64,000 bases of DNA from Phaeacidiphilus oryzae TH49 (GCF_000744815.1 NZ_JQMQ01000005.1:5847801-5911800), one strand, 5' to 3'. Counted from the first letter of the stretch, positions 6,725 to 34,267 are shown. Numbers and translations: made by a program. Notes: generated by a model not told the origin, from the sequence alone.

Positions 6725-7711
6725 GTGCCACTCACCGATCTGTCGCTGGACCAACTCCGCGAGTACCGCCCGGAGGTCCCGGAGCCCGCGGACTTCGACG
6801 CCTTCTGGGAGCGGACGCTGAAGAGCGCCCGCGAGTACCCGATCGGGGCGGTCTGGACCCCGGTGCCGGAGGCGGAGCACCAGCTGACCGAGTTCGAGGT
6901 CTTCGACGTCCGGTTCAACGGCTGGGCCGGGCAGCCGGTCGCGGCCTGGCTGCTGCTGCCGCGGGTGCGCCGGGGCCGGCTGCCGGTGGTGGTGCGCTAC
7001 CTCGGCTACTCGGGCGGGCGCGGGCTCCCGCTGGAGCACGTCTTCTTCCCCGCGGCCGGCTACGCCCACCTGGTGGTGGACTCCCGCGGGCAGGGGCGGG
7101 ACACCCCGGACCCGGTCGAGGGCGGCGGCACCCAGTGGGTGAACGGCTTCATGACCCGGGGCATCGAGCACCCGGACAACTACTACTACCGCCGGCTGAC
7201 GACCGACTGCGTGCGGGCGGTCGAGGCGGTCCGCGAGCACCCGGAGATCGACCCGGACCGGGTCGTGGTGACCGGCGCCAGCCAGGGCGGCGGCCTCACC
7301 CTCGCGGTGGCCGGGCTGGTTCCCGACCTGGTCGCGGCGGCGATGGCGGACGTGCCCTTCCTCTGCCACTTCCGGCGGGCCGCGGAGATCGCCCCGCAGG
7401 CGCCGTACACGGAGTTCACCGACTACCTGAAGATCCACCACCGGGGGGCCGAGGAGACCGTCTTCGGCACCCTGGACTACTTCGACGGCGTCCACCACGC
7501 CGCCCGGGCCGACGGCGTCCCGGCGCTGTTCAGCGTGGCGCTGATGGACCCGATCTGCCCCCCGTCCACGGTCTACGCGGCCTACCACCGCTACGGCGGC
7601 CCGGCCGAGATGCAGGTGTGGCGGTTCGGCGACCACGGCGGCGGCCGCGCCGACCAGATCCGGGTGCAGATGGAGTGGCTGCGGTCACAGGGGCTCGCCC
7701 CGTCCCGTTGA
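6725..7711 (+). CDS. Acetylxylan esterase / cephalosporin-C deacetylase family (AXE1)
   Basis: 328-aa alpha/beta hydrolase of carbohydrate esterase family 7, which removes acetyl groups from xylo-oligosaccharides and cephalosporin C. Visible features: N-terminal PADFDAFWERTL, the RGQG oxyanion element (SRGQGRDT), the nucleophile elbow TGASQGGG (Ser about 182), the acid in SVALMDPICPPSTVYAAY, and the His in FGDHGGG. There is no signal peptide, so it should act in the cytoplasm on imported acetylated oligosaccharides. It starts at GTG 6725 after a GA-rich leader. It is probably a single-gene unit between the conservon and a two-component system. Confidence 0.92.
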   Translation: MPLTDLSLDQLREYRPEVPEPADFDAFWERTLKSAREYPIGAVWTPVPEAEHQLTEFEVFDVRFNGWAGQPVAAWLLLPRVRRGRLPVVVRYLGYSGGRGLPLEHVFFPAAGYAHLVVDSRGQGRDTPDPVEGGGTQWVNGFMTRGIEHPDNYYYRRLTTDCVRAVEAVREHPEIDPDRVVVTGASQGGGLTLAVAGLVPDLVAAAMADVPFLCHFRRAAEIAPQAPYTEFTDYLKIHHRGAEETVFGTLDYFDGVHHAARADGVPALFSVALMDPICPPSTVYAAYHRYGGPAEMQVWRFGDHGGGRADQIRVQMEWLRSQGLAPSR

Positions 7712-7777
7712 CCTCTCCCGCCCCTTCGAACCCCTACGCTACGGGGAAAGCGGGGCAGGGAACGGGGCGAAGAGGCA

Positions 7778-8542
7778 GTGAGCGAGACAAACGGGACGAT
7801 CTCGGTGATGATCGTCGACGACGAGACGCTGGTCCGGTCCGGGCTGAGTCTGATCGTCGGCGCCGCACCGGACATCGAGGTGGTGGCCACCTGCCCGGGC
7901 GGCCGCGCCGTCGAGGAGGCGCGGCTGCACCGGCCGGACGTGGTGCTGCTGGACATCCGGATGCCGGACGTGGACGGCCTCACCGTGCTGTCCCGGCTGC
8001 GGGCGATGCCCCGTCCGCCCGCGGTGGCCATGCTGACCACCTTCGACATGGGGGCGCCTCCGGTCCCCGGCGGGGACGGGGGAGAGTACATCGGCTCGGC
8101 GCTGCGCGGCGGCGCCGCCGGCTTCCTCCTCAAGGACACCGACCCGGACCAGCTGGTGCACGCGGTACGGGTGCTGGCGCAGGGCGGCAGCATACTGTCC
8201 CCCGGCGTCACCGAGACGGTGATCAGCGGATACCTCTGCTCCGGCCCGGACCGTGCGACGGCGGCCAGACTGCGCACCAGGACCACCCGCGAGCTGGACG
8301 TCCTCGCGCTGCTCGGCGAGGGCCTCTCCAACGCGGAGATCGCCCGCCGGCTCTTCCTCTCCACCGGCACGGTCAAGGACCACATCAGCGCGATCCTGGC
8401 CAAGCTGGGCTCGGCGAACCGGGTGCAGGCCGCGGTGATCGCCCACCGGGCGGGGCTGGTCGGGCTGGACGGCGACGGCAGCGGCGACGGCAGCGGCAGC
8501 GGCGGCAGCGGCGGCGGCCGGCCAGGGGCGGGCCAGGAGTGA
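7778..8542 (+). CDS. NarL/LuxR-family response regulator
   Basis: 254-aa two-component response regulator. The receiver domain (residues about 8-140) has the acidic pair VDDE, phospho-acceptor Asp59 in DVVLLDIRMPDVDG, the Thr of MLTTFDMG and the Lys of FLLKDTD. A LuxR-type HTH follows (RELDVLALLGEGLSNAEIA, then STGTVKDHISAILAKLG). The receiver carries an unusual insertion of about 10 residues (GAPPVPGGDGG) between FDM and EYIGSALRGGA, where family members normally read FDxDEYVY. The C-terminus is a Gly/Ser-rich tail. The GTG start overlaps nothing upstream; the stop overlaps the kinase start by 4 nt. Confidence 0.95.
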   Translation: MSETNGTISVMIVDDETLVRSGLSLIVGAAPDIEVVATCPGGRAVEEARLHRPDVVLLDIRMPDVDGLTVLSRLRAMPRPPAVAMLTTFDMGAPPVPGGDGGEYIGSALRGGAAGFLLKDTDPDQLVHAVRVLAQGGSILSPGVTETVISGYLCSGPDRATAARLRTRTTRELDVLALLGEGLSNAEIARRLFLSTGTVKDHISAILAKLGSANRVQAAVIAHRAGLVGLDGDGSGDGSGSGGSGGGRPGAGQE

Positions 8543-9678
8543 CCGAGCGCCGCTGGTACCAGGCGGGCTGGCTGAACGTCCTGGTGCCGTTCCTCCTCGC
8601 GGTCGCGGACGCGCTGCTCGCCGACGACCTCCACTCGGTCTCCGAGATGGCCACCGCGCTGCCGGCCGCGGTCGTGCTGCTGGTCCGCCGCCGCTGGCCG
8701 GTGCCGGTCCTGCTGCTGACCCTGCCGGGCATGATGATGAGCTACATCTGGCTGGCCCCGATGATCGCCCTCTACACGGTGGCCGCCCGCTACCGGAACC
8801 GCTGGCTGATCGGGATCTGCGGGCTGCTGGTGGCCTTGACCCAGTTCATCCCGTGGCCGATGGACATCCCCTTCGGCCTGGACCGCACCACCCTCCTCTC
8901 CGGCGTGTACGCGGCGCTCACCGCGGGCGCGCCGGTGGCGCTCGGCCTCCTCGTCGACACCCGGCGCGAACTCGCGGTCCGGGTGGACGAGTTGACCCGC
9001 GGGCAGGAGCGCGAGCAGCGGCTGCTCGCGGCCACCGTGCTGTCCACCGAGCGGGCCCGGCTGGCCCGGGAGATGCACGACGTGGTCTCCCACCAGGTCA
9101 GCCTGATCAGCATCCAGGCGGGCGCGCTCCAGGTGCGGGCGGACAGCCCGGAGCAGCGGGAGGCCGCGCAGGCCATCCGCCGGCTGGCCGTCACCACCCT
9201 CAAGGAGCTCCGGCACATGGTCGGCGTGCTGCGGGCGGCCGGCGGCGACGCGGGGGAGCTCACCCCGCAGCCGACCCTGGCCGAGCTGCCCCGGCTGCTG
9301 GAGGGGGCCGGTCTGGACGCGGAGCTGGACCGGTCGGCACTGCCGGACGGCCGCCGCTTCCCGGTGCCCGTGGAGCGCGCGGCGTACCGGACGGTGCAGG
9401 AGGCGCTGACCAATGTCCGCAAGCACGCGCCGGGGGCCCCGGTCGAGGTCCGGCTCGGCCTCGGTCTGGACGGCGGCGGGCCGGACCGCCTTGTGGTCCT
9501 GGTCACCAACGGACCGCCGGCGGACGCGGCGGCCGGCCCCCAGCTGCCCGGCGGCGGCCACGGCCTGGTGGGGCTGCGGGAGCGGGCGGCGCTGCTGGGT
9601 GGAGCCCTGACGGCGGGCCCGCGGCCGGACGGCGGCTTCCGGGTGCGCGCGGAGTTCCCGACCGGTTTCAAGCCCTGA
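8539..9678 (+). CDS. Sensor histidine kinase, HisKA_3 family
   Basis: 379-aa membrane kinase, partner of the preceding regulator. Four to five hydrophobic helices fill residues about 12-140 with only short loops, typical of the DesK/LiaS-like class that senses within or at the membrane. A dimerisation helix then carries the phospho-acceptor His180 in AREMHDVVSHQVSLI, and a HATPase_c domain follows (RTVQEALTNVRKHAPG, then GGGHGLVGLRERAALLGG). It starts at GTG 8539 inside the stop of the regulator gene (GTGA). The signal is unknown. Confidence 0.95.
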   Translation: MTERRWYQAGWLNVLVPFLLAVADALLADDLHSVSEMATALPAAVVLLVRRRWPVPVLLLTLPGMMMSYIWLAPMIALYTVAARYRNRWLIGICGLLVALTQFIPWPMDIPFGLDRTTLLSGVYAALTAGAPVALGLLVDTRRELAVRVDELTRGQEREQRLLAATVLSTERARLAREMHDVVSHQVSLISIQAGALQVRADSPEQREAAQAIRRLAVTTLKELRHMVGVLRAAGGDAGELTPQPTLAELPRLLEGAGLDAELDRSALPDGRRFPVPVERAAYRTVQEALTNVRKHAPGAPVEVRLGLGLDGGGPDRLVVLVTNGPPADAAAGPQLPGGGHGLVGLRERAALLGGALTAGPRPDGGFRVRAEFPTGFKP

Positions 9679-11668: not shown

Positions 11669-12436
11669 TCAGGCGCGCTGCGCCGAGGGGGAGGCGAGCC
11701 AGGAGTCCACGTCCGGGCCGGCCACCCGGGCCGAGTCCGGGGCCAGCAGCACGCCCTCGGCCAGCTCCGGGAGGCGCGGCGGGACGGTGCGCACCGGGCG
11801 GGCGTCGCCGCGGGCCTTCAGCAGGCGGGCGGTCAGCTCCGGGAGGCGGATCCGCTGCGGGCCGGTGAGCAGCAGCGGTACCGGCCCCAGCGGCTCGCCG
11901 AGCGCGGTCTCCGCGAGCACCGCCGCCACGCTGTCCACCGCCACCGGCTGCACCAGCCAGTCCTGGACCACCACCTCGTCGCCGCTCTGCTCCACCGCCG
12001 CCGGGTTGGTCGCGAACTCGAACCACTGGGAGGTCTTGACGATGCTCGGCCGCACCGGGCCGGAGGCGACCAGCCGCTCCTGCTCGCGCTTGGCCAGGTA
12101 GTAGGGGAAGCCGTCGAAGACCGGCTGCTCGATGCCGATGATGGAGAGGAGCACCAGATGGCCGACGCCCTCGGCCGCGCAGGCGTCCAGCACGTTGCGG
12201 GTGGCCCGGGAGACCGCCTCGACCACCTCCGGGGAGGCCGATCCGGCGGCCGGGACCGGGTTCGAGGCGTCGACGACGGCGTCCGCCCCGCGCAGCGCCT
12301 CGGCCAGGCCCTCCCCGCCGACCAGGTCCACTCCGCGCGAGCGGGAGGCCTCGACCACCTCCGCTCCGCGTTCGCGCAGCGCCTCGGCGGTGCGCGAACC
12401 CGCGGTGCCGGTTGCTCCGAGCACGGTGATCCTCAT
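11669..12436 (-). CDS. NmrA-like NAD(P)-binding atypical SDR
   Basis: 255-aa Rossmann-fold protein of the atypical SDR / NmrA-like group. The N-terminal nucleotide motif is MRITVLGATGTAGS (GxxGxxG), followed by the acidic strand end and a DAVVDASNPVP segment. HLVLLSIIGIE and the YYLAKREQE helix supply the YxxxK-like position. The substrate is unknown; the family includes NADPH-sensing regulators and small-molecule reductases. The ATG at 12436 begins exactly at the Rossmann strand. A 21-bp palindrome lies about 65 bp upstream, so the gene is probably repressor-controlled. Confidence 0.85.
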   Translation of the reverse strand: MRITVLGATGTAGSRTAEALRERGAEVVEASRSRGVDLVGGEGLAEALRGADAVVDASNPVPAAGSASPEVVEAVSRATRNVLDACAAEGVGHLVLLSIIGIEQPVFDGFPYYLAKREQERLVASGPVRPSIVKTSQWFEFATNPAAVEQSGDEVVVQDWLVQPVAVDSVAAVLAETALGEPLGPVPLLLTGPQRIRLPELTARLLKARGDARPVRTVPPRLPELAEGVLLAPDSARVAGPDVDSWLASPSAQRA

Positions 12437-12500
12437 GGCGTCGGCCTTTCTCCGGTGTCGCCGGTCCACCGCCGGCTCGGGTGCCGCCCACGGTAACGAT

Positions 12501-16970: not shown

Positions 16971-19900
16971 ATGGCACGCCATCTCCGCACCGGGCTCCTA
17001 GTCGGCCTGGGCGTCTTCGGGGGCTGGGTCTCGCTGGTGTTCCTGCGGGACTCGCAGGGCTCGCAGGAGTTCATGGGCTACGCGGGCTTCGTGGTGTCGG
17101 CCGGGGCGCTCGGGGTGGCGCTCCTCGAACTGCCCCGCAGGGGCGTGCCCACCGACGCCGCGCGGCCGGCCGAGGAGCTGGCGAACGAGGTGCGGCAGCA
17201 GTGGGAGGAGGAGGCGCGGGTCCGCGGCCTCTTCGAGCCGGAGGCCGGGACGCTGCCGCTGAGCTGGACCGCCTCGGCCCGGGGGCTGCGCGACAGCCGG
17301 CCGGCCCGGCTCGCCTCGGTGGCCGGGGGAGAGCGGTACTCGCTGCCCGCGCGGGGCGGAATCAGCGGGGACGCGCGGTGTGCGGCGCGGGAGTTGGCCG
17401 AGCAGTACCGGCGGGTGCCGGGCGGCCGACTGGTCGTGCTGGGCGAGCCGGGGGCCGGGAAGACGGTGCTGGCACTGCTGCTGGTGCTGGGGCTGCTGGG
17501 CGAACCGGGAGGCCGGGAGCCGGGGCCCGTTCCGGTGCTGCTGGCCGCCGCCCGCTGGGACCCGGTCTGCGAGTCGCTCGACGACTGGCTGCTGGACAGC
17601 ATCGCCAGGCACTACTACGGCGGCCGGCGGGACGTGGCGCGGCGGCTGCTCGCGGCCGGGCTGGTGCTGCCGGTGCTGGACGGCCTCGACGAGGTCTCGG
17701 AGGTCGCCCGGCGGAGCGCGATCGAGCGGATCAACAGCGCCCTCTGCGCCGACGGTGACCGTCCGATCGTGGTCACCTGCCGGTCGTTGGAGTACGGCGA
17801 CCTGATCGCGGCCGGCTCGCCGGTGCTCCGGCGGGCCTCGGTGGTGGAGGTGGACCGGCTCACCGCCGAGGAGGTCGCCGACCATCTGCTGCCGCGCGGG
17901 GCAGGCTGGCTGACGATCCGTCAGGCACTGCTGGCCGACCGCGACGGGCCGCTGGCCGAGGCGCTGTCGACCCCGCTGATGGTGGGTCTGCTGGTCCGCG
18001 TCTGCGGGCGGTTGGACGGGGCGGTCGCGGCGGACAGCGCGGACGCGGCCGAGGGGGTGGCGGAGGGCGCGGAGGGCGCGGAGGGAGCGGCTGCGGCGGT
18101 CGGCGGCCAGGGGCCCGGCGGAACGGCCGGGAGCGCCGCGGCGGCCGAACTGCTCGCCGCCGCAAGGGAGTCCCGGACGGCGGTGGAGAACCACCTGCTG
18201 GACGCCTTCGTGCGGATGGCCTTCGAGGAGCCCGCCGCGTCCGGTGCGGCGGCCGGCCGCCGGTGGCCTGCGGACCGGGCCGAGCGGTGGCTGACCTATC
18301 TCGCCACCTACCTCCACGCCCACCGGGAGCGCGAGCTCGCCTGGTGGCGGCTGGCGCCGAGGCTGCTGTCGCCGTGGGTGGCGCCGGTGCTCGCGCTGGT
18401 CGGCGGAGGCGGGCTGGCCTGTGCGATGGCGGCGTGGATCGCCTGGCTGGACCCGGGGATGAGCCAGGCCCCCAGCGTGGGCGGCGGTGTGCTGTTCGCC
18501 GTGCTGGCGCTGGTGGTCTGGCTCGCGGTGCCGGCGCCCGAGCCGCGCCGTACGGTGCCCTCGCTGCACGGTGGGGCCGGCCGGTTGCGGCGGGGATTCC
18601 TGCGCGGCGCCGGGCTGGTGGCGCTGATCGCCGTGCCGGTGGTGGTCGGGCAGCTGGTGGTGGACGCGATGTCGCCGGGGGGTTGGACCGAGGAGCCGAT
18701 GGACGCGCTGGGGACGCTGCTCGGCGGAGGGGCCGGGGTGGCCTCGGCGTTTGGCCTCGCGCTCGCCGTCGAGCAGTGGCTCCAGGTCGAGCCGAGCCAG
18801 GCGCGGAAGGCGGCGGTGCTGGACTCCGTACGGCAGGACCGGAGGTCCTCGCTGGGCAGTACGCTCTGCACCGGCCTCGTGGTCGGGCTGCTCGGGCTGC
18901 CGGGGTGTGCGGCCGGGATGGGACTGGGGCGGGCGGTGTTCCAGGCGCTGACCGGGGGGTCCGGATTCCCCGGCGGCTGGGCGCCGTTCCGGGTGGTGCG
19001 CTGGTGCTGGGATGTGCTGCTGGAACGGCTGCCGGGGGCGGAGCAGCCGATTCCCGCCGCGCGCTCCGGGTTCCTGGTCCCGGTGGCGCAGTACGCGCTG
19101 CTCCCGGGGGCCGTCACCGCCGCGCTGGTGCTGCTGTCGCAGGCGTGGCCGCGCTGTGTGGTGGTGCGGTGGTTCCTCGCCGCGCGGGGGCGGCTGCCGT
19201 GGCGGCTGCTGTCCTTCCTCGAGGACGCCCGGGCGCGGGGGCTGCTGCGGCAGGCGGGCGGGGTCTACCAGTTCCGGCATGTGGCGCTGCAGGAGCGGCT
19301 GGCCGGGCGGCCGGGGAGGGGGGACCGTCACGCGGCCGCGGAGTCCCCCGCGGAGCCCTCCGCGGAGTCCCCTGGCGGGGCGGCGCGCCGGCGGACCCGG
19401 CGCAGCGTGCTGGCGGGGGCCGGGGTCGGGGCGGTGGCGGTGCTGGCCCCGGTGCTGCTGCGGGAGGCGGAGCGCAGCGGTGACGCGGCCTTCGCCGTCC
19501 AGGCGGATCGGCTGGGGGCCTGGGCGGTGGCCCCGGACCGGCCGTGGATCGCCCGGGTGCAGCGCCGGGCCGCCCCCGATCCGCGCTGCGACGTGGAACT
19601 GCTGCGGCTCGGCGAGGAGGACTGGCGGACCGTCCTCGCCCGGGACGTGGTGGCCGGGATCGGGGAGATCCGGGTGGGCGCGGGCGGGGCGTACACCGTC
19701 TGGACCGCCGACACCGGGGTCCTCTACCGGCACGACCCGGCGAGCGGTGAGGTGCGGTGGCTGCCGGTGGAATCGGGCTGCGCGCTGGCGCCCGACGGGT
19801 CGTCGGCCGTGCTGCTGGGCGCGGACGGGCGGCCGTTCCGGCTCGATCTGCGGGCCGGCCTGCGGGGCGGACGTGCGGGGTTGGGACCGGGGTTGGGGCT

Positions 19901-20612
19901 GGGACCGGGAACGGGGCCGCGGACGGGGCCGGGGACGGGGACGGGGACGGTGGTGGGGCGGAACCCGGCCCGCGGCTTCTCCGCCCCCGGCACGGTGCTG
20001 CTGCCGACGGTCGACGGGCGGTACTGCGCGGTGGTGGAGGACGGCGGGCCGTGCGCGGTGTGGGCGCTGGAGGGCGAGGGCACGCCGGTGCGGCTCGGCG
20101 GGATGCCGGGCGTCGGCTCCGGCGGCGAGCTGCTCGGCCTGCGGGCGGACGGCCGGGTGCTGGCGTATCTGGCCGGGTCCGGGGCGGCGGCGCCGAGGCG
20201 CTGCGTGCTGTGGTCGGTGGCGGACGGGAGGGAGACCGGCGGCTTTCCGTCCGGCGACGCGGCCCCGGCGGTGAGCGCCGACGGGCGGGTACTGGCCGCC
20301 TACGACCAGGACCGGGAGCGCTGGGCGGTCCGGTCGGGGAGCGGGGGGCGGCTGCTGGCCGAGGTGGGCGACTTCGGCGCGGAGGACACGCTGTATCTGA
20401 ACCCGACCGGGACGGTGCTGCTGGGGCCGGGGCCCGCCGACACCGTCCTGCTGTGGGACGTCCGTCCGGGCGCGGTAAGGAGGTTGAGGCATCCGCTGGG
20501 CGGTGACACCGGCGCGCTGGCGGCGGCGAACTTCTCCTTGGACGGGCGCTGGGCGGCGACCCACGACGGGCTGATGCTGCGGGTGTGGCGGGGTGGCTCT
20601 CCGAGAGGGTGA
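16971..20612 (+). CDS. Membrane NACHT NTPase with C-terminal propeller-like region
   Basis: 1213-aa STAND-class NTPase. Order: two N-terminal membrane helices (about 5-55); NACHT core with Walker A GEPGAGKT (about 158-165), Walker B VLPVLDGLDEV (about 233-243) and VVTCRSLEY sensor region; then about six hydrophobic segments (about 450-720); a conserved RGLLRQAGGVYQFRHVALQERL helix-turn; a basic RRRTRRSVLAGAG plus hydrophobic stretch (about 805-830); and a C-terminal ~380 residues with WD/YVTN-like blades (VLLWDVRPGAVRRL, SLDGRWAATHDG). NACHT proteins in bacteria are often phage-defence sensors; that role here is inference. ATG 16971 follows AGGGAG; TTG 16950 and GTG 16956 are alternatives. 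It stands alone. Confidence 0.88.
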   Translation: MARHLRTGLLVGLGVFGGWVSLVFLRDSQGSQEFMGYAGFVVSAGALGVALLELPRRGVPTDAARPAEELANEVRQQWEEEARVRGLFEPEAGTLPLSWTASARGLRDSRPARLASVAGGERYSLPARGGISGDARCAARELAEQYRRVPGGRLVVLGEPGAGKTVLALLLVLGLLGEPGGREPGPVPVLLAAARWDPVCESLDDWLLDSIARHYYGGRRDVARRLLAAGLVLPVLDGLDEVSEVARRSAIERINSALCADGDRPIVVTCRSLEYGDLIAAGSPVLRRASVVEVDRLTAEEVADHLLPRGAGWLTIRQALLADRDGPLAEALSTPLMVGLLVRVCGRLDGAVAADSADAAEGVAEGAEGAEGAAAAVGGQGPGGTAGSAAAAELLAAARESRTAVENHLLDAFVRMAFEEPAASGAAAGRRWPADRAERWLTYLATYLHAHRERELAWWRLAPRLLSPWVAPVLALVGGGGLACAMAAWIAWLDPGMSQAPSVGGGVLFAVLALVVWLAVPAPEPRRTVPSLHGGAGRLRRGFLRGAGLVALIAVPVVVGQLVVDAMSPGGWTEEPMDALGTLLGGGAGVASAFGLALAVEQWLQVEPSQARKAAVLDSVRQDRRSSLGSTLCTGLVVGLLGLPGCAAGMGLGRAVFQALTGGSGFPGGWAPFRVVRWCWDVLLERLPGAEQPIPAARSGFLVPVAQYALLPGAVTAALVLLSQAWPRCVVVRWFLAARGRLPWRLLSFLEDARARGLLRQAGGVYQFRHVALQERLAGRPGRGDRHAAAESPAEPSAESPGGAARRRTRRSVLAGAGVGAVAVLAPVLLREAERSGDAAFAVQADRLGAWAVAPDRPWIARVQRRAAPDPRCDVELLRLGEEDWRTVLARDVVAGIGEIRVGAGGAYTVWTADTGVLYRHDPASGEVRWLPVESGCALAPDGSSAVLLGADGRPFRLDLRAGLRGGRAGLGPGLGLGPGTGPRTGPGTGTGTVVGRNPARGFSAPGTVLLPTVDGRYCAVVEDGGPCAVWALEGEGTPVRLGGMPGVGSGGELLGLRADGRVLAYLAGSGAAAPRRCVLWSVADGRETGGFPSGDAAPAVSADGRVLAAYDQDRERWAVRSGSGGRLLAEVGDFGAEDTLYLNPTGTVLLGPGPADTVLLWDVRPGAVRRLRHPLGGDTGALAAANFSLDGRWAATHDGLMLRVWRGGSPRG

Positions 20613-20643
20613 GGGGAGGGGCGGAGCGGGGTCGGTGCGGCGG

Positions 20644-20872
20644 GGTGGGTGGTTGGCCGCGCAGTTCCCCGCGCCCCCTACTTGCGCCTGCGGCGCTGCG
20701 GTTGGGTGCGCGGTTGGGTGCGGCTGGGTGGGTGGTTGGGCGCGCAGTTCCCCGCGCCCCCTACTTGCGCCTGCGGCGCTGCGGTTGGGTGCGCGGTTGG
20801 GTGCGGCTGGGTGGGTGGTCGGGCGCGCAGTTTCGCGCGCCCCCTACTTGCGCCTGCGGTGCTGCGGTTGGG
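20644..20872. repeat. 83-bp-period tandem repeat, 2.75 copies
   Basis: Three near-identical copies follow the NACHT gene. The GCGCAGTTYC word starts at 20659, 20742 and 20825, an exact 83-bp spacing. Each copy holds a G/C palindromic core (GCGCAGTTCCCCGCGCCCC), then TACTTGCGCCTGCGGCG and a GGTTGGGTGCG run. The third copy has TTTCGCGCGC changes and is cut short at the transposase remnant. The core is the same dispersed element seen at 34246-34267. The 20613-20875 gap holds nothing else. Confidence 0.92.
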
Positions 20873-34136: not shown

Positions 34137-34267
34137 AAGGGGCGCGGGGAACTGCGCGGCCCGCCGCTAACGGTCCGCGGCCGGCGGCGGAGTTCGGGTT
34201 GCAACCCGGTAGCCGTTGCCGGGTGCGGCGCCGTAGCGGGCTGGGCGCGCAGTTCCCCGCGCCCCTT
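34137..34267. repeat. Inverted pair of a 22-bp dispersed G+C-rich element
   Basis: The 309-bp gap 34001-34309 holds the iron box and this pair. The element at 34137-34158 (AAGGGGCGCGGGGAACTGCG and CG) recurs as its perfect reverse complement at 34246-34267, 87 bp away. Its core is the same as that in the 83-bp tandem repeat at 20.7 kb, including the following CGCCTGCGGCGCTGCG. It could fold as a large hairpin and terminate transcription of the helicase gene that ends at 34310. Confidence 0.88.

Follow-up and report, generated by a model that had tools for sequence, protein, structure and literature searches.

A Predicted Membrane-Embedded NACHT ATPase of Phaeacidiphilus oryzae TH49 with a Putative Extracytoplasmic WD40 Propeller

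Introduction

Sensing by STAND/NLR receptors is generally placed inside the cell. A gene of Phaeacidiphilus oryzae TH49 raises the question of whether a bacterial member of this group could carry its sensor on the outer side of the membrane and its ATPase on the inner side. We analysed the gene within a stretch of 64,000 nucleotides (GCF_000744815.1, NZ_JQMQ01000005.1:5847801-5911800; positions are counted from its first letter), which is called the window below. It encodes one protein that joins transmembrane (TM) helices, a NACHT ATPase and a C-terminal WD40 propeller. With a probability of about 0.55, we consider this protein to be a membrane-embedded bacterial NLR-like STAND/NACHT receptor with an outside propeller as the sensor, a six-TM bundle as the output and an exchangeable tail. 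The original prediction for this DNA had described two N-terminal TM segments, an intact NACHT module, six further TM segments and a late basic and hydrophobic stretch, and all of these landmarks were present in our analysis.

Results

NACHT Core

The gene and its core comprise the following features.

16971..20612, + strand: whole gene, 9-TM NACHT ATPase with a C-terminal WD40 propeller, 1213 aa (open frame, single genomic copy, GC3)
17418..17870, + strand: NACHT nucleotide-binding core, residues ~150-300 (motifs, Pfam, NLRP3 fold)
17442-17465, + strand: Walker A, GEPGAGKT, residues 158-165
17667-17693, + strand: Walker B, LPVLDGLDE, residues 233-241
19143..19307, + strand: predicted C-terminal half of the winged-helix region, RLPWRLLSFLEDARARGLLRQAGGVYQFRHVALQERLA, within residues 725-779, the endpoint of the tail-less relatives (relatives' frames, AlphaFold2)

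The open reading frame starts with ATG and is uninterrupted, and the G+C content at third codon positions (GC3) is about 94% in core and tail alike; it is therefore one coding unit throughout, and a pseudogene was ruled out on the same grounds. The gene is present in a single copy in the 7.8-Mb genome.

Relatives were collected by tblastn against plasmids, which gave Streptomyces relatives including two with the full layout (P0002 and P0003), and by scanning genome contigs with a three-sequence alignment, which gave 360 relatives, 80 of which were kept. A genome-contig scan with the single window protein found no relative. The collection holds one genome only for the genus of the window organism. 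The window protein belongs to this actinobacterial NACHT-TM family. Most of its Walker A and B residues are invariant across 71 relatives, and it shows the NACHT-type Walker pattern GxxGxGK[ST] together with the acidic tail DGLDE. The Pfam NACHT match was weak and below the cut-off in the window protein (P0001), while P0002 and P0003 exceeded the cut-offs for both NACHT and WD40.

An AlphaFold2 model of residues 1-845, made with 71 sequences, reached a predicted local distance difference test score (pLDDT) of 82.7 and a predicted template modelling score of 0.80. Residues 65-783 of this model aligned with NLRP3 residues 135-536 at a Z of 20.0 with 326 residues aligned, and Foldseek also aligned the core model with NOD2 and NLRC4. 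A winged-helix hairpin was predicted at residues 759-768. According to the model, the core is an NLR-like NACHT fold in the order nucleotide-binding domain, helical domain 1 (HD1) and winged helix, and by its Walker motifs and predicted fold the window protein is a member of the NACHT clade of STAND proteins. ATP-dependent oligomerisation is proposed.

Membrane Topology

Nine hydrophobic segments were found: two at the N-terminus, exactly six more (473-723) and one at 812-830, which is accompanied by RRRTRRSVLAGAG and follows RRRTRR. The predicted helices are as follows.

16974..17048, + strand: TM1, residues 2-26, N-terminus inside (hydrophobicity, loop charges, AlphaFold2)
17061..17126, + strand: TM2, residues 31-52 (hydrophobicity, loop charges, AlphaFold2)
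18378..19136, + strand: six-TM bundle, TM3-TM8, residues 470-493, 500-519, 535-567, 574-604, 616-661 and 702-722 (hydrophobicity, charges, AlphaFold2, NLRP3 alignment)
19404..19478, + strand: TM9, residues 812-836, N-in/C-out (hydrophobicity, relatives, charges, AlphaFold2)

All nine segments were helical in AlphaFold2, with the TM9 region modelled as a helix at 803-844 in the core model and at 812-836 in the C-terminal model. Since the NLRP3 alignment over model residues 65-783 spans the TM stretch, the six-TM stretch at 470-722 (~250 residues) is an insertion relative to NLRP3. Judged from its position in the model, the bundle appears to fall in the winged-helix region (the alignment tool does not report the exact flanking residues of NLRP3).

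The positions of the nine segments were transferred from the window protein to the 71 aligned relatives. Among the 24 propeller members, each segment was hydrophobic in at least 96% of the sequences. The mean net charge of the parts assigned to the inside was +3.3 (N-terminus), +4.6 (L4), +0.8 (L6), +7.9 (L8) and +2.7 (linker), and that of the parts assigned to the outside was -1.1 (L1), -1.5 (L3), -1.1 (L5), -1.4 (L7) and -0.7 (after TM9). Every short loop obeyed the positive-inside rule, which does not apply to a loop as long as the one that bears NACHT. As the inside loops are positive and the outside loops negative, there is strong computed evidence that the N-terminus, the NACHT module and the winged-helix segment are cytoplasmic and that the propeller would lie outside the cell.

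TM9 was recognisable in 33 of the 34 tailed members, and it is a real, clade-wide ninth TM helix. The exception, L018 (Actinoplanes liguriensis NRRL B-16723, contig KL571252.1), has the transposase-adapter sequence GTGTATAAGAGACAG in place of TM9. Because an adapter stands at the very spot of TM9, this loss looks like an assembly error, and the public assembly looks contaminated or misassembled at the NACHT gene. The adapter sequence occurs twice in this contig, at 8158-8178 and 12433-12447. The original prediction had considered that the late hydrophobic stretch might cross the membrane, with the propeller outside and the ATPase inside, and the clade-wide TM9 and the charge pattern support this idea.

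C-Terminal Propeller and Tail Exchange

Two features lie in the tail.

19479..20609, + strand: WD40 beta-propeller, residues 837-1213, predicted extracytoplasmic (phmmer, AlphaFold2, structure matches)
19866..19970, + strand: G/P/T-rich low-complexity loop within the propeller, residues 966-1000 (tandem repeats, pLDDT, absence in relatives)

The window protein alone gave no match to Pfam WD40. With phmmer, its tail matched the WD40 region of ATG16L1 (E 1.3e-7). The C-terminal AlphaFold2 model had a mean pLDDT of 64 and was good from about residue 1003 onward; the first blade region (residues ~836-924) and the G/P/T-rich loop were poorly modelled. The predicted propeller matched WD40 proteins, the best being ODA16 (Z 15.6). 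On the basis of the predicted structure, the tail is a WD40 propeller, and this bears out the blade region of ~380 residues expected earlier, for which a structure prediction had been named as the check. The GPGTG low-complexity run noted within the blades was also confirmed (residues ~966-1000; tandem repeats at 19876-19950); with a pLDDT below 50 and being missing in the relatives, it is a loop insertion.

The frames of the relatives are of two main sorts. The tail-less ones end right after DAxxRGLLRQxGxxYQFRHxxLQExLA, and the others continue with a linker, a basic run, a hydrophobic helix and a C-terminal domain. In a tree built from the cores only, 34 tailed proteins stood on one side of a strongly supported branch and 41 tail-less proteins on the other. 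The tailed clade holds 27 WD40 proteins and 7 with an unrelated Cys-paired domain, with three label changes in all. L008 (WD40) and L010 (Cys-domain) have cores that are 59% identical and tails that are unrelated. Since either domain is found on cores of up to 59% identity within one clade, the tail is exchangeable. Divergence is also much faster in the tail than in the core, the core and tail identities in pairs being 81 and 49%, 73 and 34%, and 63 and 36%. In sequence comparison the tail has the behaviour of a variable sensor, which supports the sensor idea of the original prediction.

The Cys-domain is carried by L010, L026, L030, L032, L035, L036 and L038, in which regularly spaced cysteines directly follow TM9; the first two are 23 residues apart in 6 of the 7 proteins. 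Paired cysteines at this place are as expected for a domain that would lie outside the cell. The domain had no match in a Pfam or PDB sequence search, and as these searches returned nothing, its reading as a periplasmic-binding-protein domain was dropped.

Two other relatives differ in layout. The remote relative L084 (Streptomyces albireticuli, 7426-9066) has a CHAT protease-like C-terminal domain (Pfam E 2.4e-17) downstream of the YQFRH..LQ motif, and the segment between the two shows no evident TM helix. L006 has a second P-loop frame (GPGGQGKT, ~1077-2500) just upstream of its NACHT gene, and its NACHT protein appears without TM1-TM2.

Tat-Like Motif at TM9

TM9 of the window protein is preceded by a basic flank.

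19386..19418, + strand: RRRTRRSVLAG, basic flank with a Tat-like RRxVL motif (relatives' alignment, motif counts)

In about 14 tailed members, including the window protein, TM9 opens with RRx-phi-L followed by an Ala/Gly-rich sequence; examples are TRRSVLAGAGVGAVAVLAP in the window protein and VRRRAVLAAGAAAAAGA in L009. RRx-phi-L was found before TM9 in 14 of 33 members, before TM1 in 4 of 31, and before TM3, TM5 and TM7 in none of 31. Shuffled helix starts gave a mean of 2.3 and never more than 8. Of the 31 members, 18 have a twin RR before TM5 and 24 before TM7, yet RRx-phi-L is never formed there. A small Rieske protein of the same genome has the signal GRRSVLRGAAAVGVLGAAGAALAAC, the core of which is nearly the same as that of TM9, and TRRSVLAGA of the window protein closely resembles its GRRSVLRGA. 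TatC of the twin-arginine translocation (Tat) pathway is encoded in the genome.

Proteins that are inserted by both the general secretory (Sec) and Tat pathways are recognised by an even TM count and a twin arginine ahead of a single, weakly hydrophobic final TM, which is followed by positive charges (PMC5449189). The window protein shows this order, with eight TMs, TRRSVL and one further TM, and trailing charges are given by REAERSGD, with two Arg in the first five residues past 812-830. TM hydrophobicity was expressed as an index, a home-made weighting of the Hessa scale; as a control, TM1-TM3 of the Rieske QcrA-like protein of the genome gave -2.03, 0.44 and 4.59. The median index of TM9 was 2.24 in the motif group, indicating a weaker TM9, against 0.83 otherwise (p 5e-4), and the motif group had more positive charges after TM9. 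From these sequence features, Tat export of the window propeller has about even odds.

Locus and Neighbouring Genes

The start codon of the gene is unsure, since an in-frame TTG lies 21 nt upstream of the ATG; a candidate ribosome site, GGGAG, is just 3 nt from the ATG. An antisense frame at 16998-20564 was regarded as a high-GC artefact, and a tRNA call of unknown type, made by ARAGORN inside the gene (18886-18979) and having an anticodon of two bases, is most likely a chance match. Three other NACHT-domain matches occur in the genome (L089-L091; G000:C5:3936826-3937314, 4941660-4941992 and 3367405-3367977), and none is closely related to the window protein.

The neighbouring genes encode an NAD(P)-binding protein, a HAD phosphatase, methyltransferases, TetR, an enoyl-CoA hydratase, an IS4/5 insertion sequence remnant, NmrA, TetR, MFS and LysR proteins. 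The tandem repeat and the insertion sequence remnant previously noticed beside the gene are both present, as an 83 bp x 2.9 repeat at 20634-20872 and an IS4/5 transposase remnant (DUF4096). The repeat carries GCGCAGTTCCCCGCGCCCC, which has five copies in the window with at most 2 mismatches (chance 0.02); copies outside the repeat lie at 34139-34157 (-) and 34247-34265 (+). The repeat resembles one that is common between genes in Streptomyces, and its link to the NACHT gene is probably not a specific one.

The accessory defence locus that had been proposed here found no support. PADLOC gave a weak mads_8 match for the window protein and just generic methyltransferase matches (mads_2) in the flanks, and a defence island was rejected, as the flanking genes are ordinary metabolic and regulatory ones. 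A search for conserved defence neighbours, also suggested earlier, found no partner gene kept across the tailed loci; the genes that these loci share are confined to close relatives or belong to common families. The NACHT gene lies near groES-, groEL- and tsaD-like genes (names from reading the sequences) in one Streptomyces subclade. Since no partner gene is conserved, the protein probably acts alone and appears self-contained.

Discussion

Our results suggest how an outside sensor may be coupled to an inside ATPase. When an NLR goes from the ADP to the ATP state, it is the winged-helix region that moves. TM1-TM2 would anchor the front end, and TM9 would carry the WD40 propeller to the outer face, where it may bind an extracytoplasmic ligand. 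Binding would be relayed via TM9 to the NACHT/winged-helix switch, followed by nucleotide exchange and oligomerisation. The six-TM bundle would then move with the switch and be the likeliest output, for example by membrane permeabilisation; it was chosen as the output because there is no separate effector domain and no conserved partner gene. The tail would be an exchangeable sensor cassette. In the RRx-phi-L subset, possibly including the window protein, the propeller may fold inside and be exported by Tat once TM1-TM8 have been inserted by Sec.

Several points weigh against this receptor model. Its output step through the six-TM bundle is reached by elimination. In other NACHT-WD40 proteins (Apaf-1-like, fungal HET-E), the propeller is cytosolic and sensing takes place inside the cell, and TM9 is weak in several Streptomyces relatives (index 3.1-3.8, Kyte-Doolittle 1.4-1.7). 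These observations would agree with an ordinary membrane-anchored NACHT-WD40 protein that senses intracellular signals, with 812-836 as a membrane-surface or re-entrant helix and the propeller in the cytoplasm. We regard this as unlikely, because TM9 comes after eight other TMs and the charges of all short loops fit, TM9 is strongly hydrophobic in many relatives, sister members carry the Cys-paired domain at the same spot, and RRx-phi-L is best understood as belonging to an exported segment. With regard to the export route, TM9 of the window protein is the fifth of nine in hydrophobicity and not unusually weak (Kyte-Doolittle 2.19), which makes insertion by Sec no less possible than Tat for this protein. 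The association of the motif with a weak TM9 is also not independent of ancestry: a tree-corrected comparison had just four supported independent pairs, which is too few, and kinship weakens all motif counts. Sec may thus deliver the propeller as a normal C-terminal domain, with RRx-phi-L acting as a strong positive-inside signal, as many relatives with a strongly hydrophobic TM9 lack the motif. The restriction of RRx-phi-L among the twin arginines, the likeness to the Rieske signal and the weaker TM9 with more trailing charges in the motif group speak against Sec alone, and we place it just under an even chance.

An outside propeller could also serve a housekeeping sensor of the envelope or hyphae (cell-wall state, kin recognition or development), in which NACHT is an energy-dependent switch. 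The lack of defence neighbours in the window, the ordinary flanking genes, and the chaperonin- and tsaD-like neighbours in one subclade are in favour of such a role. A fast-diverging tail that is swapped for an unrelated domain is more typical of conflict sensors, and the bacterial NACHT proteins tested so far are anti-phage (PMC12169576, PMC10907252). The housekeeping role is a serious possibility, although clearly short of even. Reported bacterial NACHT proteins protect against phages, and in one locus diversified by a diversity-generating retroelement, one target has NACHT and lectin domains for which a periplasmic location was predicted (PMC10907252). By analogy with these proteins only, a conflict role may be considered for the window protein.

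Taken together, the topology and the sensor of the original interpretation were supported and its defence locus was not, and it had overlooked the possible Tat signal, the six-TM winged-helix insertion and the exchange of sensors. If the receptor model is true, an NLR that is threaded through the membrane and senses outside would be a bacterial one-protein counterpart of a surface immune receptor, the NLR switch would be directly coupled to membrane helices, and a ready set of natural sensor swaps would be supplied. We more tentatively propose, at somewhat less than even odds, a whole class of outside-sensing bacterial NLRs with a six-TM-split winged helix, an exchangeable WD40 or Cys sensor and, in part of the clade, an internal Tat signal. 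To our knowledge, no signalling protein is so far known among the dual Sec/Tat substrates; if the Tat reading is true, dual assembly would extend from cofactor enzymes to signalling proteins. No description of a membrane NLR with an outside propeller was found in the open-access literature searched, and the features that would be new in the NACHT/NLR kind are a sensor on the outer side, the inserted TM bundle and a possible export by Tat.

The window protein shares with the animal NLRs (NLRP3, NOD2, NLRC4) the NACHT-HD1-winged-helix order, the Walker motifs, the predicted fold and the C-terminal position of the sensor. It differs from them in about 250 residues with six TMs in the aligned winged-helix stretch, in two TMs at the effector position, and in a sensor that is predicted outside the membrane and is WD40 in place of leucine-rich repeats. 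The Mycobacterium tuberculosis protein PknD is a Ser/Thr kinase with an external propeller. It resembles the predicted layout of the window protein in having an inside NTP-using enzyme, one TM and an outside propeller, but it is a kinase, not a NACHT protein, and has a single TM.

The bacterial anti-phage bNACHT proteins share the bacterial NACHT module, the single gene and a variable C-terminal part, whereas those tested in PMC12169576 carry either a nuclease effector or the short tail SNaCT, and a TM bundle or outside sensor is described for none of them. An NCBIfam match to EruA (NF058535) was rejected at 21.5 bits against an equivalog cut-off of 1000 bits. The KAP NTPases and Tmn defence proteins likewise have TM segments inserted in a P-loop NTPase module (PMC11846954, citing Aravind 2004); they are described there with two TMs in the NTPase domain, whereas the window protein has NACHT, six TMs in the predicted winged-helix region and a putative external propeller. 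KAP membership was rejected, as no KAP family was among the Pfam matches up to E 1. The dual Sec/Tat proteins (actinobacterial Rieske, Sco3746, polyferredoxin and YkuE-like; PMC5449189) show the same even number of TMs, twin arginine, final TM and folded C-terminal domain. The families described in that report carry cofactor or metal domains, whereas the window protein would combine a signalling ATPase and a propeller.

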